Assembly: GCF_021596945.1 (NCBI RefSeq)
Contig: NZ_CP063779.1
Coordinates: forward strand, 3,012,001-3,076,000
DNA: 64,000 nt
Direction: 5' to 3'
Origin: Mongoliitalea daihaiensis
GTDB lineage: Bacteria; Bacteroidota; Bacteroidia; Cytophagales; Cyclobacteriaceae
The translations under genes were made by a program, and so were the position numbers. Each line of letters begins with the position of its first letter. Position 1 is the stretch's first letter. Below are positions 37,923 through 45,578 of this stretch, piece by piece. Under the pieces are notes generated by a model that saw only the letters and a list, made by a program, of their open reading frames with translations, did no database searches and was not told the DNA's origin.

Positions 37923-38291
37923 ATGACCATTAGCCTACTCCAAAGCAACAAAACTTTTGTGAAACTTGTACTGGTATTGAATGCCTTACTTTTTTCAGCA
38001 TTGGCTGTATGTGATCATTTCGAAGATGTTGAGGATGTACTTTATCAGGATATTGAAATCTTGACAGAGCAAGATTTTGATGATTTTGATTTTCCTGCTA
38101 AAATATCACGAGCACTAGAATATCCTTTGGTTTTGTTTGAACGAACGGAACAAATCAAGGTGGTTGATTTTCTTCTTTCAGTAATTGTACCACTTGAAGT
38201 GTACCAGGATGATTTTTTTATTCAGCCTCCAAAAATTCAAATAGTATATCAGTTTTTTGTAGGTACGAGTATTTTTAGAAATGCCCCCTAG
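37923..38291 (+). CDS. Small membrane-anchored protein, paralog 1
   Basis: This 122-residue protein has one N-terminal hydrophobic segment (about 12-28, KLVLVLNALLFSALAVC) and then an acidic outer part. No family was recognised. It is clearly a paralog of the 120-residue protein at 39344-39706: both share a (FL/IL)(S/T)E(T/Q)DFDxxDFPxxISR block, a VVDFL block and an identical NAP C-terminus. The orientation of the hydrophobic segment is unclear; it may be a signal peptide or an anchor. The gene lies upstream of a beta-barrel protein and the RND efflux operon. Function is unknown. Confidence 0.7.
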   Translation: MTISLLQSNKTFVKLVLVLNALLFSALAVCDHFEDVEDVLYQDIEILTEQDFDDFDFPAKISRALEYPLVLFERTEQIKVVDFLLSVIVPLEVYQDDFFIQPPKIQIVYQFFVGTSIFRNAP

Positions 38292-38293
38292 TG

Positions 38294-38416
38294 CTGTTTC
38301 CAACAGTGCATTGCTATTAAGTCTTTTCATTAAACCACAAGTGACTTTAGGAAGTCAACTTTGCTGAACAGTCTATTCAAGAAGAGCTGAATATCAGCTT
38401 TTAGGCAATGCTTTTT
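38294..38416 (+). other. Multi-hairpin region, possible structured RNA or leader
   Basis: An outer stem GCATTGC (38308-38314) / GCAATGC (38405-38411) encloses two perfect hairpins: TGACTT-TAGG-AAGTCA (38342-38357) and AAGAGCTGA-ATA-TCAGCTTTT (38382-38402). A further hairpin CTGTT-TCC-AACAG (38294-38306) precedes it, and a T run follows the outer stem. The set lies between paralog 1 and the barrel gene. It could be a terminator region or a leader RNA. Confidence 0.4.
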
Positions 38417-38459
38417 ACTAGTTTATAGTCTATTTTCTTTTAAAAAAATCAAGTTAAAC

Positions 38460-39194
38460 ATGCGACTATTCATGTTAGTGGCCCTGGTATTAGTCTGGAA
38501 TATCGGAATGGCTCAGCAAAATCTATTTAATATACCCTCAGGCGATATCACAGAAAAAAACAAAGTATTCTACCAGCATCAATTCAATATCTATCAGCCA
38601 ATGTTTGAATCCAAAGGCCATTTTGTTTACGGTTTGGGCAAGGGTTGGGATATAGGTGTGAATTTGGTAGGTAAAGGCATTGGCTTTAATCCTACGCTAG
38701 AATTTATTACCAATGATAACCCTGCCCTAGGAGCGTTATCTCCACATTTGATGCCATCTATTCAAAAACAGTTTCGAGTATCAGAAACCTTTGATGTCAA
38801 TTTTGGTACACAAACGGGTATAAATTTGGCAGATCAATGGGTTGAAAAGGAGATTGCTTACTTTAATTATGGGATAGGCGTCTATCATTTTATGAATAAA
38901 AAAAGTCGTTTGATTGGAGGAATCTACCATACTAATCGAAATTTTGTAGGTGATGGGACAGCTGTTGGCTTCCTTGTAGGGTATGAGTTAAAGGTAGCTC
39001 CAAGAACTTACTTGATGGGAGATTGGATCAGTGGGGACAATGAGTCTTCGGCTGCCGTCATTGGAGCCATGTATAACGTCACTAAGCGCTTTCAGTTTTG
39101 TGCAGGAATATTACTACCCAATAAGGGGAATGATAAGCCATCAGGGTTGGTGATAGAACTCAATTTCTTTGGGTGGGATTTGAATATGAAATAA
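38460..39194 (+). CDS. Hypothetical exported beta-barrel protein
   Basis: The 244-residue protein has a signal peptide (ends GMAQQ, about 19). The rest is rich in alternating strands with Gly turns (WDIGVNLVGKGIGF, YFNYGIGVYHF, SAAVIGAMYNVTKRFQF) and ends WDLNMK, as in small outer-membrane barrels. No named family was recognised. It sits between the two small paralogous membrane proteins and upstream of an RND efflux operon, so the four may function together, but no proof exists in the sequence. Confidence 0.65.
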   Translation: MRLFMLVALVLVWNIGMAQQNLFNIPSGDITEKNKVFYQHQFNIYQPMFESKGHFVYGLGKGWDIGVNLVGKGIGFNPTLEFITNDNPALGALSPHLMPSIQKQFRVSETFDVNFGTQTGINLADQWVEKEIAYFNYGIGVYHFMNKKSRLIGGIYHTNRNFVGDGTAVGFLVGYELKVAPRTYLMGDWISGDNESSAAVIGAMYNVTKRFQFCAGILLPNKGNDKPSGLVIELNFFGWDLNMK

Positions 39195-39205
39195 ATCTGA
39201 TAATA

Positions 39206-39250
39206 GTGGATTCAGTGATCTCCTAAGCTTATGAAAAACCACTGAATCAC
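39206..39250. terminator. Hairpin after the barrel gene
   Basis: GTG-g-ATTCAGTG (39206-39217) pairs with CACTGAAT-CAC (39240-39250), 11 base pairs with one bulge, around a 22-nt loop. It starts 12 bp after the barrel gene stop. No T run follows, so its role as a terminator is uncertain. Confidence 0.4.
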
Positions 39251-39309
39251 CCCTTGGTATTAAAAAAAATCTACTTTAACCAAATAATTGGGTCATATAA
39301 AAAAAACAC

Positions 39310-39338
39310 TTGGAAAATAGATTATTTTCGTAATTTTG
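39310..39338 (+). promoter_or_regulatory. Promoter of small paralog 2, possibly leaderless
   Basis: TTGG (39310-39313) and TAATTTTG (39331-39338, exact TAnnTTTG) are 17 bp apart. Transcription would start near 39344, which is the GTG chosen as start of the downstream gene. The transcript may have no leader. Confidence 0.5.
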
Positions 39339-39343
39339 CAGCC

Positions 39344-39706
39344 GTGAATTTATCTATCAACCATATTCCCACTTTTATCCGTGCTACATGCATCATGCTA
39401 GCCTTATTTTTTGTGGTGTTGGCTGTATTTGATGGGTTCGAACAAGAGCAAGAAATAGAGTATGTAGGAGAATTCTTAAGTGAAACTGATTTCGATTACG
39501 TCGATTTCCCGACTTCCATTTCTCGTCCCTCCAATAATCAAACCCTCAAAATCCAGCGATTGATATTGCTGAATGTAGTTGATTTTCTTTCAGAAGTTTT
39601 TAACATCAATACGTCTTTTGAAAAGGTAGTCGTTTACATTCCTGTTGAAATATTTTTTGGCTTAGACTATCTCATAGGCAAATCAATTGCCGCCAATGCT
39701 CCTTGA
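39344..39706 (+). CDS. Small membrane-anchored protein, paralog 2
   Basis: The protein is 120 residues from the GTG at 39344. This start was chosen because the promoter at 39310-39338 lies inside the longer frame and because the N-terminus then lines up with paralog 1 (37923-38291). It has one hydrophobic segment (about 10-29, TFIRATCIMLALFFVVLAVF), an acidic FLSETDFDYVDFPTSISR block, NVVDFL, and a C-terminal NAP. Family unknown. The next genes, after 80 bp, are the RND efflux pump operon. The pair may be a duplicated accessory or signal protein. Confidence 0.7.
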   Translation: MNLSINHIPTFIRATCIMLALFFVVLAVFDGFEQEQEIEYVGEFLSETDFDYVDFPTSISRPSNNQTLKIQRLILLNVVDFLSEVFNINTSFEKVVVYIPVEIFFGLDYLIGKSIAANAP

Positions 39707-39746
39707 GTTAAGTTTTTAATAGTCAATTTTTAAGCACATAAACCCA

Positions 39747-39770
39747 AATAACTTTCTAGGAAAGATTATT
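39747..39770. promoter_or_regulatory. Imperfect palindrome before the efflux operon
   Basis: AATAA-CTTTC (39747-39756), a TAG centre, and GAAAG-a-TTATT (39760-39770) form a 10-bp-per-arm palindrome with one bulge. It lies 17 bp before the ATG of the membrane fusion gene, a place where repressors of efflux pumps often bind. Confidence 0.35.
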
Positions 39771-39786
39771 CACTATTCATTTATTT

Positions 39787-40959
39787 ATGAAAACCAATTT
39801 GTTGCACACTCGGAAAGGGGCTGTTATGCTTTCTGTTTTGAGTTACGTGGTCTTATTTGTGACCCTATTGAATCTTGTTGCCTGTAGCAGTGGTAACAGC
39901 AAAAATCAAAAAAAAGTACTTGTCCAAGTGCCGATTGTGGAACTTCAACCCATGAGCATCTCCCTTCCTAAGACCTATGTTGCCGACATACAGGCTGTAC
40001 AGTTTGTAGAAGTTAGGGCTAAAGTAGAAGGTTTCGTGGATAGGATTTTTGTAGATGAAGGACAGTTTGTAAAAAAAGGACAAAATCTCTTTCAATTAAC
40101 GTCCAATGAGTATAATGAGATGGTCAATTCAGCGAATGCCCGTTTGTTTCAGGCAAGAGCGGAGGCGCAGGCTGCTCAATTGGAGGTAGATAGGTTAAAA
40201 GTATTAGTAGACAAAAACATCATCGCTAATTCAGAGTATCAGTTAGCGCTTTCCAAAAAAGCGGTGGCAGAATCTGTTATTTCCGAGGCTGAATCCATGT
40301 TGAAAAATGCCCGCACAGGATTGTCTTACACGACAATTAAAGCTCCTTTTGACGGAATAGTCGATAGAATACCTTACAAAACCGGTAGCTTGGTTACAGC
40401 AGGTGATCTACTGACTAATATTACCGATATATCCGAAATTTTTGCATACTATAAAGTTACTGAAAACGAGTATTTAAAATACATGCGAGATAAAATCGAA
40501 AATGATACGCTTGATGATCAGGAAGTATCATTGATTTTATCAGATGGTGTTTATTACGAATACACCGGTAAGTTCGAAACTATGGAAGCAGATTTTGAAC
40601 GTGGAACAGGGTCTATTGCTTTCAGGGTACGTTTCCCAAATCCTGATCAATTGATCAAGCATGGTTCTACGGGCAAAGTGGAAATGACTGAGTCTATTGA
40701 AGACATTTATTTAATTCCCCAGAAATCTACGTTTGAAATTCAAGACTTCAACTACGTCTACATTGTGGATAAAGATAATGTTGTAAAAATAAGAAGTTTT
40801 AAGCCTTTACAGCGTTTTGGACTGTTTTACATTGCTGACGGATTTGAGGCAGGGGATAAGATTATTTATGAGGGTATTCAACAGATAAAAGATGGTATGG
40901 AAATTATGCCAGAGTTGACGCCCGAGATAGAGGTCTATGATACATTGGTAAAGTCTTAA
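39787..40959 (+). CDS. RND efflux membrane fusion (adaptor) lipoprotein
   Basis: The 390-residue protein has a lipoprotein signal (LNLVAC, Cys33; Met14 could be the true start), a biotinyl-lipoyl-like part (VEVRAKVEGFVDRIFVDEGQFVKKGQNLF), a helical hairpin (about 115-185, NSANARLFQARAEAQAAQLEVDR), and beta-barrel and membrane-proximal domains. These are the parts of HlyD/AcrA-type adaptors, which link the inner pump to the outer-membrane channel in the periplasm. It begins a tight three-gene operon, with the pump gene 3 bp downstream. Confidence 0.92.
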   Translation: MKTNLLHTRKGAVMLSVLSYVVLFVTLLNLVACSSGNSKNQKKVLVQVPIVELQPMSISLPKTYVADIQAVQFVEVRAKVEGFVDRIFVDEGQFVKKGQNLFQLTSNEYNEMVNSANARLFQARAEAQAAQLEVDRLKVLVDKNIIANSEYQLALSKKAVAESVISEAESMLKNARTGLSYTTIKAPFDGIVDRIPYKTGSLVTAGDLLTNITDISEIFAYYKVTENEYLKYMRDKIENDTLDDQEVSLILSDGVYYEYTGKFETMEADFERGTGSIAFRVRFPNPDQLIKHGSTGKVEMTESIEDIYLIPQKSTFEIQDFNYVYIVDKDNVVKIRSFKPLQRFGLFYIADGFEAGDKIIYEGIQQIKDGMEIMPELTPEIEVYDTLVKS

Positions 40960-40962
40960 GCT

Positions 40963-43900
40963 ATGCTAGAGTTATTTATCAAAAGACCGATTTTGTCTAC
41001 GGTCATTTCCGTATTCATTACACTGCTGGGTTTGTTGTCTTTGACATCTTTGCCGATTACGCAGTTTCCAGAGATTGTTCCTCCCTCCGTAATGGTGACA
41101 GCAAGGTATACAGGGGCAAATGCAGAAGTGTTAGCAAAGGCAGTCGCAACTCCTTTGGAGCGGGCAATCAACGGAGTACCAGGGATGAGTTACATGACCT
41201 CTGTAAACACCAATGATGGGGTCACGATGATCAACATTATCTTTAAAGTAGGAACAGATCCTGATCAGGCTGCTGTAAATGTACAGAACAGAGTTTCGAC
41301 AGTTTTGGATGAGTTGCCAGAGGAGGTAATCCGAGCGGGTGTACAAGCAGAGAAGGAGGTCAATTCCATGTTACTCTATCTTAACTTAGTAACCTCTGAT
41401 TCAAGTCAGGATGAAAAATTTGTATACAATTTTGCCGATATCAATATCCTTCCTGAATTAAAACGGATTGATGGGGTAGGTTTTGCGCAGATCATGGGTT
41501 TTAAAGATTATGCCATGCGCGTATGGTTAAAGCCGGATAGATTGGTTGCCTATAATCTATCCCCTCAGGACGTCTCAGATGCTATCCGGCAGCAAAACGT
41601 AGAAGCTGCTCCAGGTAAATCAGGTATCGCCTCAGACCGTGATCCCCAAGCACTGCAATATGTCTTGAAGTATACAGGTAAATTTAATCAAGAAGAACAG
41701 TTTGAAAATATTACTCTAAAGGCTTTGCCGGATGGGTCATTATTGAAATTGAGAGATGTGGCAGATGTAGTCTTTGATGCACAGGAGTACAGCATGGTTT
41801 CGATGACTGATGGAAAGCCATCTGCTTCCATTATGATCAAGCAGCGCCCAGGTTCTAATGCCCGGGAAGTAATCCAAAACATCAAGGATAAAATGGATGA
41901 ACTCCAAGATGCTTCCTTTCCTCCAGGGATGGAGTACAATGTTTCCTATGACGTCTCCCGTTTCTTGGATGCGTCTATCTTTGAGGTTATCAAGACCTTG
42001 GTGGAAGCTTTCTTATTGGTTTCATTAGTAGTTTTTATCTTCCTTCAAGATTTTCGATCAACGCTCATTCCTGCCATTGCCGTGCCAGTATCCTTGATCG
42101 GCACCTTCTTTTTCATGCAGTTATTTGGTTTCTCCATCAACTTGTTGACGCTTTTTGCCTTGGTATTGGCAATTGGTATCGTGGTGGATAATGCCATTGT
42201 GGTAGTGGAGGCCGTACACGTGAAAATGCATGATTTAAAAATGAATGCATTGGATGCGACCTTGGCTGCGATGAAAGAAATCGGGGGTGCGATTGTAGCA
42301 ATTACCTTGGTAATGTCAGCAGTATTCGTACCTGTGAGTTTTCTTTCTGGTCCAGTAGGTATATTCTATCGTCAGTTTTCTTTAACACTCGCGATAGCCA
42401 TTGTGATTTCGGGAATTAATGCTTTGACGCTTTCGCCTGCACTCTGTGCGATGTTGTTAAAGCCTGTTGATGTGGACCATAGCCCTAAAAACGGAAGACT
42501 TCAACGCTTCTTTTATGGTTTCAATAAGCGCTACGATGCCTTAGCCGCCAAGTACAGCGGTGTAATCAATGCCATTGCTGGTAGGAGAGTAGTGACTTTT
42601 GGAGCATTGATTTTATTCTTTGCATTGACATATGGAGGCTTGACAGTATTGCCAACCGGGTTTATTCCTAATGAAGATCAGGGAATGGTGTATGTCAATG
42701 TGACTACACCTCCGGGAGCAACAGTAGAACGTACTACGGAGGTAATGGATATGGTACAAGCAAGTTTACTTCCCTTGGAAGAAGTAGAAACCATTTCCAC
42801 ACTTGCCGGCTATAGTTTAATGACAGAAACTGCCGGGGCTTCTTATGGTATGGGAATGATTAACTTGGTCGGCTGGGGAGATCGTGACAAAAATGTAAAT
42901 GAGCTGATCACTGATTACCAGGAACGAGTATCCCATATCAAAGGTGCGGAAATCCAGTTTTTCTCACCTCCGCCAGTACCTGGCTTTGGAAATGCTTCAG
43001 GTTTTGAATTGAGAATGCAGGACAAGACAGGTGGTTCTTTAGATGTCATGGCGCAAGTTACCCAGGAATTTATCGAAGAATTGAATGCTCGTCCGGAGCT
43101 AAAAGAGGTTACGACCAATTTTGAGCCAAACTTCCCTCAGTATGTTTTGAATGTAGATCATGATAAAGCTGCCAAACTGGGGATATCTGTGAACGATGCC
43201 ATGGAGACACTTCAATCCTATATTGGAAGTTTTTATTCTTCCAATTTCATCCGATACGGGCAGATGTATAAAGTGATGATTCAGGCCTCTCCAGAATATC
43301 GAACCTCACCTGAGTCCTTATTATCGATGTATGCCAAAAATGATAAGGGCCAAATGGTTCCTTACTCAAATTTTCTAACACTTGAAAAAGTATTTGGTCC
43401 AGAGCAATTGACAAGGTACAATATGTTTAATTCGGCCTTGATAACAGGTGATGCCGCGCCTGGATATGCATCAGGCGATGCGATCAAAGCTGTTGAGGAA
43501 GTTGCTTTGAAAGTACTTCCGCGCGGATTTGATATCGATTGGTCGGGTATTACTCGGGAGCAAATTGAGTCGGGAAATCAGGCAATCTATATTTTTGCGG
43601 TCTGTTTGCTTTTCGTATATCTGTTATTGGCAGCTCAATATGAAAGTTATTTTTTACCTCTACCCGTAATTCTTTCCTTGCCAGCTGGTATTTTCGGTTC
43701 ATTCCTGTTTTTAAAATTAACAGGATTAGAGAATAATATTTATGCTCAAGTATCTCTAGTAATGCTGATAGGTTTGCTAGGTAAGAACGCTATTTTGATT
43801 GTGGAGATTGCTATTCAAAATAGGGAACGAGGCCTTTCCATCCTTCAGAGTGCAATCAAAGGAGGGGTGGAGCGTCTCCGGCCAATTTTGATGACTTCCT

Positions 43901-44118
43901 TTGCCTTTATTGCTGGGTTAATTCCTTTGACCATTGCTTCTGGAGCTGGTGCTATTGGCAATAGAACGATCGGTACAGCAGCAGCAGGAGGTATGTTGAT
44001 TGGGACATTGGTTGGTGTATTCCTTATTCCAGGACTGTATGTAGTCTTTGAGACACTCGATACCAAGTTTAAGAAAAAGAAAGCAACAGAAGTTTCTAAA
44101 GAATTACCAGTAACATGA
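40963..44118 (+). CDS. RND multidrug efflux permease (HAE1 family)
   Basis: This 1051-residue protein has the AcrB pattern: 12 membrane helices, two large periplasmic loops, FIKRPILSTVISVF at the start, TGANAEVLAKAVATPLE, TM4 with GIVVDNAIVVVEAVH (Asp409), and TM10 with GLLGKNAILIVE carrying the proton-relay Lys. It pumps drugs, dyes or bile-type compounds out with H+. The second Asp of the AcrB TM4 pair is Asn410 here, a natural variant in some RND pumps but worth noting. Its stop overlaps the next start by ATGA. Confidence 0.95.
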   Translation: MLELFIKRPILSTVISVFITLLGLLSLTSLPITQFPEIVPPSVMVTARYTGANAEVLAKAVATPLERAINGVPGMSYMTSVNTNDGVTMINIIFKVGTDPDQAAVNVQNRVSTVLDELPEEVIRAGVQAEKEVNSMLLYLNLVTSDSSQDEKFVYNFADINILPELKRIDGVGFAQIMGFKDYAMRVWLKPDRLVAYNLSPQDVSDAIRQQNVEAAPGKSGIASDRDPQALQYVLKYTGKFNQEEQFENITLKALPDGSLLKLRDVADVVFDAQEYSMVSMTDGKPSASIMIKQRPGSNAREVIQNIKDKMDELQDASFPPGMEYNVSYDVSRFLDASIFEVIKTLVEAFLLVSLVVFIFLQDFRSTLIPAIAVPVSLIGTFFFMQLFGFSINLLTLFALVLAIGIVVDNAIVVVEAVHVKMHDLKMNALDATLAAMKEIGGAIVAITLVMSAVFVPVSFLSGPVGIFYRQFSLTLAIAIVISGINALTLSPALCAMLLKPVDVDHSPKNGRLQRFFYGFNKRYDALAAKYSGVINAIAGRRVVTFGALILFFALTYGGLTVLPTGFIPNEDQGMVYVNVTTPPGATVERTTEVMDMVQASLLPLEEVETISTLAGYSLMTETAGASYGMGMINLVGWGDRDKNVNELITDYQERVSHIKGAEIQFFSPPPVPGFGNASGFELRMQDKTGGSLDVMAQVTQEFIEELNARPELKEVTTNFEPNFPQYVLNVDHDKAAKLGISVNDAMETLQSYIGSFYSSNFIRYGQMYKVMIQASPEYRTSPESLLSMYAKNDKGQMVPYSNFLTLEKVFGPEQLTRYNMFNSALITGDAAPGYASGDAIKAVEEVALKVLPRGFDIDWSGITREQIESGNQAIYIFAVCLLFVYLLLAAQYESYFLPLPVILSLPAGIFGSFLFLKLTGLENNIYAQVSLVMLIGLLGKNAILIVEIAIQNRERGLSILQSAIKGGVERLRPILMTSFAFIAGLIPLTIASGAGAIGNRTIGTAAAGGMLIGTLVGVFLIPGLYVVFETLDTKFKKKKATEVSKELPVT

Positions 44119-45578
44119 AATCATTAGGAAAAATAAATAAACTGGCACTATTTATTCTGCTAGGCTCGGTGGTGGTTTCTTGTAAAACCGCAGAATTGAC
44201 TCTGGATGATAAAGATACCGCTTTGCCTGTAGGCTTTGATACTACTTCTATGATTGAGGATGGTTCTTCATCTGCGGCTGCACTTCAGTGGCACAATTTT
44301 TTTGAAGATGATCATCTGAAATCCCTGATTCAAGTGGCTTTGGAAAATAATCAGGATCATCTGAAAGCAGTAGAAAGAATCAGAGTTGCTCGTGCCAGTT
44401 ATCGTATTGCGAAAGGGGGATTACTCCCTGAAGTAAATGCTCTTGCGGGTGCTTCCGTAAGGAGGTTTGGAGAATTTACTATGGATGGAGTTGGTAATGC
44501 CGACTCCAACCTTTCTCCAACTGTACCAGAGGATAAACAAATTCCTGATCCATACAGGGATTTCATCGTAGGAGCTCAATTCAGCTGGGAGATTGATATT
44601 TGGTCCAAGCTTCGCAATCGAAAAAAGGCAGCATTTGCCCGTTTTCTAGCCTCAGAAGATATGGTCAATGCTATCAAAACATGGCTGGTTGCGGAAGTAT
44701 CCCAGAAGTATTATGAGTTAGTAGCTCTAGATGAGGGAATCAAGATATTAGAATCAAATATTCAATTGCAGGAATTTGCTGTCAATCTTTCCAAAGATTT
44801 GAAAGAGTCAGGAAAAGAAAATCAATTAGCTGTTGACCAGTTTGAGGCATTGATGCTTAATTCCAAAGCGCAATTGATTGAGAAAAAACAGATATTGAGA
44901 ACAGCAGAATTGCAGATGTTCCAATTGTTAGGGGTGTATGATACAGAGCTCATTCGCTTAGATATGGAGCAAGTATATGGAGTTCCTGACATCATTGAAA
45001 TTGGATTGCCCGCAGAATTATTGGCGTATCGTCCCGATATCCGAATGGCAGAGCGAGAGTTGTTGGCTACCAAAGCAGAGGTGGATGTAGCAAAGGCTGC
45101 ATTTTTTCCTTCGATTCAACTAGGTGGAATGGTAGGGTATAATGCATTTGATTTCTCTAGACTATTCTTTAACCCAGCATCATCTGTATATCAACTAGGA
45201 GCGGGTTTGGTTGCCCCTATTTTCAATAGAAATCAGATAAGAATGAACTTTGAATCTGCAAAAGCATCCCAAAAGATCGCATACTTGGATTACGAGCAAA
45301 CCATATTTAAAAGTTACCTAGAGGTCCTTAACCTTGTCAATGAATTCAATGCATTTGATGAGCAGTTAGAGCTCAAAACCGCTGAAGTGGAAGTTCAAAA
45401 GCGCTCAGTGGAAAATTCAAATATCATGTTCCGTGTAGGCTATGCAGGCTATTTGGAAGTATTGAATGCGCAGACAAATGCACTGGAATCAGAAATTGAG
45501 TTGATTGAACTCAAGAAGCAACAGTTGCAAGCAAATGTACGCCTTTATAGAGCTTTAGGTGGTGGATGGCTTCAATAA
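44115..45578 (+). CDS. Outer-membrane efflux channel lipoprotein (NodT/OprM type)
   Basis: The 487-residue protein has a lipoprotein signal (VVVSC, Cys23). Two repeats of helices and strands follow (LQWHNFFEDDHLKSLIQVALENNQD ... and RPDIRMAERELLATKAEVDVAKAAFFPSIQLGG), the outer membrane factor pattern. It forms the trimeric tunnel of the efflux pump. It is the last gene of the operon, overlapping the pump gene by 4 bp. The family motif RPDI.MAE.EL marks the second repeat. Confidence 0.93.
   Translation: MKSLGKINKLALFILLGSVVVSCKTAELTLDDKDTALPVGFDTTSMIEDGSSSAAALQWHNFFEDDHLKSLIQVALENNQDHLKAVERIRVARASYRIAKGGLLPEVNALAGASVRRFGEFTMDGVGNADSNLSPTVPEDKQIPDPYRDFIVGAQFSWEIDIWSKLRNRKKAAFARFLASEDMVNAIKTWLVAEVSQKYYELVALDEGIKILESNIQLQEFAVNLSKDLKESGKENQLAVDQFEALMLNSKAQLIEKKQILRTAELQMFQLLGVYDTELIRLDMEQVYGVPDIIEIGLPAELLAYRPDIRMAERELLATKAEVDVAKAAFFPSIQLGGMVGYNAFDFSRLFFNPASSVYQLGAGLVAPIFNRNQIRMNFESAKASQKIAYLDYEQTIFKSYLEVLNLVNEFNAFDEQLELKTAEVEVQKRSVENSNIMFRVGYAGYLEVLNAQTNALESEIELIELKKQQLQANVRLYRALGGGWLQ

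Follow-up and report, generated by a model that had tools for sequence, protein, structure and literature searches.

Small exported proteins with a NAP-stop end precede RND efflux operons in the Cyclobacteriaceae and are probable arrest-type leaders

What is the closest known counterpart of a small exported protein that ends in Asn-Ala-Pro directly before its stop codon? In the Bacteroidota it is uDF_NAP-stop, a set of 396 uORFs lying upstream of secDF, mainly in three orders of the phylum (Fujiwara et al. 2024; PMC10987492). The member that was tested stalls the ribosomes of E. coli (about 30-50%) and of B. subtilis (>50%), and in vitro the arrest occurs with the stop codon in the A site and requires residues -3 and -1 as well as the stop codon; the screen covered only the regions upstream of secA, secDF and yidC (PMC10987492). 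The uA_NSP-stop peptides likewise have Pro as their last residue before the stop codon, arrest with that codon in the A site and need residues -3 and -1, but they differ from the proteins described here in their N-S-P motif, in preceding secA and in belonging to a different Bacteroidota family, the Sphingobacteriaceae (PMC10987492). For a nascent exported protein serving as a control element there is a precedent in CruR (DUF2946; PMC9426467), and a further paper describes a copper-sensing case (PMC9973294). CruR and the RAPP/RGPP uORFs resemble our proteins in that a small uORF, whose exported product carries a conserved arrest motif at its C-terminus, precedes envelope genes other than those of the Sec system; they differ in that the RAPP/RGPP ends are not NAP-stop, in the CXXC copper motif and in lying before TonB and copper genes (PMC9426467, PMC12992588). 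The RAPP/RGPP survey deals with TonB, copper and other genes, and the word "efflux" is absent from it (PMC12992588).

SecM, VemP and ApdA/ApdP share with the proteins described here the combination of a signal, a spacer and a C-terminal arrest motif, with control of a downstream gene; they differ in that this gene is secA or secDF, and in that elongation, at RAGP/RAPP-type or other motifs, rather than termination is arrested. Termination arrest that controls a downstream operon is exemplified by TnaC, a peptide of 24 residues without a localisation signal, which senses tryptophan and whose Pro codon is followed by UGA. One of our proteins, P2, likewise has a Pro codon followed by UGA, together with an N-terminal segment that TnaC lacks. 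Our search of the open-licence literature found no arrest-peptide leader of an efflux operon; a Flavobacterium co-evolution paper was rejected as a leader precedent, as it concerns TolC mutations in a TetR-linked operon. The stop-codon arrest layout is thus known before secDF, and before efflux pumps it is apparently new.

The locus considered here lies in a window of 64,000 nucleotides from Mongoliitalea daihaiensis. As a preliminary description of the window had it, two small genes, P1 and P2, bracket the gene of a 244-residue protein and precede a full efflux operon (Table 1). The length of P2 is counted from the GTG at 39344; the longest open reading frame opens at 39254.

Table 1. Features of the P1-P2 locus, in window positions, and of other NAP-stop genes
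Feature	Position	Strand	Remarks
P1, 122-residue leader-like protein	37923..38291	+	Start ATG 37923, stop TAG; 5' of the 244-residue protein gene; N-terminal TM segment, DFDDFDFPAKISR block, C-terminus FRNAP-stop
NAP-stop of P1	38280..38291 (G000:3050280-3050291)	+	AAT GCC CCC TAG
244-residue exported protein	38460..39194	+	"Barrel" (putative fold); insert between the leaders
Bacteroidota-type promoter of P2	39310..39338	+	Predicted; TTG 39310-39312, 18-nt spacer, -7 box TAATTTTG 39331-39338
P2, 120-residue leader-like protein	39344..39706	+	Start GTG 39344, stop TGA; TM segment (10-30), DFDYVDFPTSISR block, C-terminus AANAP-stop
NAP-stop of P2	39695..39706 (G000:3051695-3051706)	+	AAT GCT CCT TGA
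T5 tract	39713..39717	+	Just 3' of the P2 stop
Possible hairpin	39747..39770	+	AATAACTTTC-TAG-GAAAGATTATT, 5' of the adaptor start
RND periplasmic adaptor	39787..40959	+	MFP, MexE/OqxA-like
RND efflux transporter	40963..44118	+	HAE1-like by sequence reading; orthologues 68-97% identical lie 3' of homologous leaders
Outer-membrane factor	44115..45578	+	TolC-like
secDF leader ORF	L113:8622-9026; own genome C1:1522624-1522980	- (own genome)	Ends NAP-stop
secDF leader ORF, second locus	L114:8541-8912
NAP-stop of PssA-like 236-residue membrane enzyme	L135; own genome C1:2517794-2517805	-	AATGCGCCGTAG

An identity of 35% over 112 residues in a pairwise alignment (E=2e-15) marks P1 and P2 as true paralogues, and they are the sole two close copies in the 4.8-Mb genome; the earlier recognition of two related small membrane proteins is thereby borne out. 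Their common features are also those first described, namely a hydrophobic segment, a DFDxxDFPxxISR block, the motif VVDFL and the terminal NAP, with the qualification that P1 reads ILTE rather than ILSE at the SE-like position. A comparison of the two Mongoliitalea genomes indicates purifying selection on both genes (dN 0.17/dS 0.59 for P1, dN 0.29/dS 2.2 for P2), and pN/pS is 0.10 in the C-terminal third of P1, orthologues of which occur at loci L004/L037 and L044/L036. That no family had been recognised agrees with the searches: neither P1 nor P2 has a Pfam or NCBIfam match above the curated cut-offs, the other members of the homologue set have none in Pfam, comparison of the leader proteins and the 244-residue protein with the PDB gave chance-level matches only, and the viral contigs searched contain no relatives of P1 or P2. 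Structure prediction, which had been suggested as a check, was carried out for P2; apart from a TM helix at residues 10-30, AlphaFold2 modelled no domain with confidence (mean pLDDT 57.9, pTM 0.24, from a shallow alignment of ten sequences).

Could P1 and P2 simply be finished single-span membrane proteins, either AcrZ-like pump accessories or periplasmic signal proteins, in which NAP is a recognition tag for a PDZ domain or a tail-specific protease, for example? The N-terminal TM segment, the purifying selection and the conservation of DFDxxDFPxxISR far from the C-terminus all speak for such proteins, and the conserved block could serve a function of the finished protein. Nevertheless, we regard this explanation as distinctly unlikely. 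The model of P2, shallow as its alignment is, contains no confident fold; a tag leaves the codon usage, the stop codon bias and the leaderless start described below unexplained; and NAP also ends the leader of secDF, a position for which arrest by a NAP-stop peptide was demonstrated in vitro (PMC10987492).

How general is the association with the pump? A profile of four sequences, used to search Cyclobacteriaceae genomes, found relatives in many of them, and an order-wide profile search gave no convincing member outside this family. Among the 43 homologous genes examined, which come from 18 genera of Cyclobacteriaceae, 36 immediately precede the adaptor gene of an RND operon, two are P1-type genes located 5' of the 244-residue protein gene, and five, in as many genomes of a single genus (g64), are neighbors of fmt and have no pump next to them on the downstream side. 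The link of leader to pump put forward in the preliminary description is strongly supported by these positions. Furthermore, because 36 of the 43 genes are linked to a pump and because an alignment of 40 sequences shows conservation of the DFP block in other genomes as well, neither a scatter of homologues away from efflux genes nor a block private to M. daihaiensis was found; it is the link to the barrel gene that is limited to a lineage.

The copies of genus g64 beside fmt (L061-L065) keep an intact NAP-stop or HAP-stop end together with the promoter, and a large hybrid-sensor-like gene lies about 1 kb downstream of them. In one of these genomes (L064) a second leader copy precedes the pump on the other side of fmt. 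Orphan copies are not predicted by a purely cis-acting leader unless another downstream gene is controlled, and a leader kept apart from any adjacent pump counts in favor of finished proteins; these copies may reflect another downstream target, decay or a finished-protein function.

The 244-residue protein had been described as a barrel and as a possible partner of the small proteins. The gene is present as described, whereas the barrel fold finds no support in Pfam, NCBIfam or the PDB, none of which gave a match, and the AlphaFold model is of low confidence (mean pLDDT 31), with a mere hint of strands. The order P1, 244-residue protein gene, P2, adaptor, RND transporter and outer-membrane factor is kept in Mongoliitalea lutea (L005/L037) and in a Cecembia genome (L044/L036), and the arrangement is therefore not due to chance. 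In a Cecembia metagenome-assembled genome (L045/L039), P1 and the 244-residue protein gene are present as fragments, and P2 and the pump are intact. The pairing of a leader with this gene is found in Mongoliitalea and Cecembia alone; homologues of the gene elsewhere are sporadic, and since each is without such a leader, we rejected the barrel as a general partner. The 244-residue protein gene is a lineage-specific insert between two leaders.

What, then, is conserved at the C-terminus? The 40 aligned homologues share a layout in which an N-terminal hydrophobic segment is followed by the DFDxxDFPxxISR block, then by a stretch of low conservation and finally by an invariant terminal A-P; the residue before it is N in at least 90% of the sequences and otherwise H or Q. 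This N and the last P occupy the two positions, -3 and -1, on which arrest by uDF_NAP-stop depends (PMC10987492). The 19-residue Kyte-Doolittle maximum of the hydrophobic segment averages 2.2 in the family (lowest 1.4), the segment ends at residue 25-34, and 88-96 residues separate it from the stop codon. Codon counts, made on all 43 genes, show that the terminal Asn is encoded by AAT (20) or AAC (19) and the Ala by GCT (12), GCC (12), GCA (11) or GCG (8). Because these codons are freely exchanged, it is the peptide rather than the RNA that is conserved.

The final Pro codon and the stop codon behave differently. The Pro codon is CCC in 27 genes, CCT in 15 and CCA in one, that is, CCY in 42 of 43 as compared to 55% in the long ORFs of the same loci. 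Of the 22 long ORFs that end in Pro, one of them P2 itself, 12 use CCY and 10 use CCA, and with P2 removed the difference is significant (Fisher p=2e-5, related sequences taken as independent). Similarly, 28 of 43 genes (65%) terminate in TGA versus 23% of neighboring genes (p=8e-9, related sequences again taken as independent); weighted by genus, the TGA share is 59%. A protein tag at the C-terminus hardly accounts for these two biases; they are what selection would be expected to produce if termination is arrested while a particular Pro-tRNA occupies the P site. A genome-wide pattern search showed that NAP-stop ends only four real ORFs, namely P1, P2, a leader of secDF and the 236-residue PssA-like enzyme.

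The same nucleotides might instead be conserved as RNA, for example because a terminator or an element of the rut kind surrounds the stop codon; the preference for CCC and TGA might then reflect constraints on nucleotides. A tract of at least five T residues lies within 25 nt of the stop in 63% of homologues as compared to 12% of control genes, and some loci have hairpins that end at the Asn codon. However, every possible third base occurs in the Ala codons and both in the Asn codons without a change of amino acid, purifying selection acts on the reading frame, and RNAalifold found no consensus structure in the intergenic alignment, so that we consider conservation as RNA highly improbable. 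A hairpin before the adaptor gene is visible in several relatives, with a stem that differs among them; we grade this element as possible because RNAalifold gave no structure and because intergenic folding energies are barely below those of shuffled sequences (mean z only -0.9).

The 5' end of the leaders is constrained as well. The GTG start of P2 lies 5 nt past its -7 box, and the mRNA is predicted to be near-leaderless; in 28 of the 43 homologues the start codon lies exactly 4 nt past the sequence TAHHTTTG, a spacing seen in one of 473 control ORFs, with 3-6 nt seen in six of 473 (~1%). For P1 there is no clear -7 box upstream. In Flavobacterium johnsoniae the G of the -7 box maps to position -5, and leaders longer than 10 nt occur in 87% of transcripts with a probable promoter (PMC6847099). 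With this G at -5, the 4-nt spacing places the start codon of the leader at the predicted +1. Taken together, the constraints at both ends of the gene (the C-terminal residues, the codon for the last Pro, the stop codon and the leaderless start) and the lack of a predicted folded domain lead us to prefer a regulatory leader over the accessory, envelope-stress or signal protein first suggested, which is less likely.

A third gene was found weakly, yet over its full length, by the 40-sequence profile in the genomes of M. daihaiensis and M. lutea. It encodes a protein of 120-odd residues with an N-terminal hydrophobic segment and the end LLEQIISTNAP or LLERIISTNAP, it lies 88-91 nt upstream of secDF (88 nt in M. 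daihaiensis), and by description it is a member of the published uDF_NAP-stop arrest peptides. Matches occur in 52 of the 148 family genomes sampled; the secDF leaders of Cyclobacteriaceae have the NAP end in 30 of 30 cases and CCC in 24 of 30, and their -7 box lies 6-7 nt before the start. The profile of the pump leaders matches that of the secDF leaders with a probability of 94%, in no more than the 42 columns at the C-terminus, a similarity that could stem from common descent or from convergence.

The pump leaders thus resemble uDF_NAP-stop in being Bacteroidota proteins with an N-terminal localisation signal or TM segment, N-A-P before the stop codon and a spacer of more than 30 residues (here 88-96). 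They are unlike it in preceding an RND efflux operon, in the DFDxxDFPxxISR block and in a strong UGA preference; the similarity is confined to the C-terminal ~42 residues. Because the P1/P2 family does not lie directly upstream of secDF, whose leader is a separate gene, we do not claim its membership in uDF_NAP-stop.

We propose that P1 and P2 are probably regulatory nascent chains of the NAP-stop type and that P2 is probably the arrest-type leader of the pump operon. Gene order, the conservation of the C-terminus, the Pro-codon and stop-codon biases, the geometry of the start, the spacing and the selection are observations, and ribosome arrest at a stop codon is published for this terminal motif. 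We infer arrest by P1 and P2, control of the pump, the direction of that control and the signal sensed, as follows. The RND efflux mRNA would have P2 as its first cistron, and its 5' end is predicted to fall on the P2 start codon or within ~1 nt of it. First, during synthesis of P2, its N-terminal segment would engage the membrane or the translocon. Second, once the stop codon has entered the A site, the N-A-P end, still attached to tRNA-Pro, would inhibit termination, most readily at UGA, and leave a ribosome stalled just 5' of the adaptor gene, where it would alter downstream transcription or translation by analogy with SecM, VemP and CruR. Finally, pulling, processing or binding of the nascent chain outside the ribosome would end the stall. 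If the ribosomal tunnel and the translocon together hold roughly 60-70 residues, the DFDxxDFP block, at a distance of about 59-70 residues from the C-terminus and about 60-70 from the P site, would be coming out close to the periplasmic face of the translocon while the ribosome is on the stop codon, which makes it the best candidate for a sensor. P1 would be a duplicate placed 5' of the lineage-specific exported protein.

A variant of this arrest model holds that the input is ribosome-targeting drugs, in a small-molecule sensing of the TnaC/ErmCL kind, rather than the state of secretion or of the periplasm. Termination arrest in known leaders can be modulated by small molecules, and the downstream operon encodes a multidrug-type pump. 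Nevertheless, a drug input seems unlikely, since a localisation signal and a fixed spacer of ~90 residues are unneeded for sensing a drug in the tunnel and are a hallmark of secretion-coupled monitors (PMC10987492).

Are RND operons elsewhere in the phylum preceded by comparable leaders? We sampled the adaptor genes of Cyclobacteriaceae genomes without a P1/P2-type leader and of the whole phylum, 56 loci in all; at 32 of these, one of them the locus of the window, an exported ORF of roughly 100-180 residues lies shortly 5' of the adaptor gene. These ORFs are mostly unrelated in sequence to P1 and P2, their middle is often acidic, and they fall into groups with conserved ends of their own, namely -[LFIY]RI-stop (several families), -HHSWKSFLA-stop, -LRTLHLRKLF-stop and Pro-rich ends. 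Leaders of these other groups gave no Pfam or NCBIfam match. TGA terminates 15 of the 17 RI-group genes counted versus 6% of neighboring genes, a figure marked by strong shared ancestry. The RI-stop profile, which is too divergent to recruit widely, matched 9 of 295 genomes, and in the three matches whose downstream gene was checked an adaptor gene was next.

Loci with [LFIY]RI-stop ends and an E/D-rich middle include L181, L184, L186 (RL), L201, L212, L215-L219, L221-L223, L225, L226, L228-L230 and L256-L258. Ends of the HHSWKSFLA type are found at L185, L187 and L188, and LRTLHLRKLF at L180 and L207. The Pro-rich ends LPPPRQ and SPPPNQA (L208, L210) are reminiscent of polyproline stalling. 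At the leaderless pump loci L200, L202, L220 and L232, a transcriptional-regulator-like gene, identified by eye, takes the place of the leader.

We tentatively suggest, as a generalization that we place just on the doubtful side, that tripartite RND operons of the Bacteroidota are commonly controlled by several families of exported nascent-chain sensors with a UGA bias, which end in NAP-stop within the Cyclobacteriaceae and in [LFIY]RI-stop across many lineages besides, and that arrest at the sensor's own stop codon ties pump expression to envelope or translational status. If this is true, RI-stop is a new termination-arrest motif; for the NAP-stop motif, an in vitro assay already exists. Arrest peptides have so far been mainly feedback sensors of Sec and YidC, lately joined by those of copper and TonB genes. 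A class of arrest leaders would account for the uncharacterised small proteins located 5' of efflux operons, and its conservation before multidrug efflux operons would mean that drug pumps of the Bacteroidota are controlled by ribosome arrest, with no neighboring repressor.
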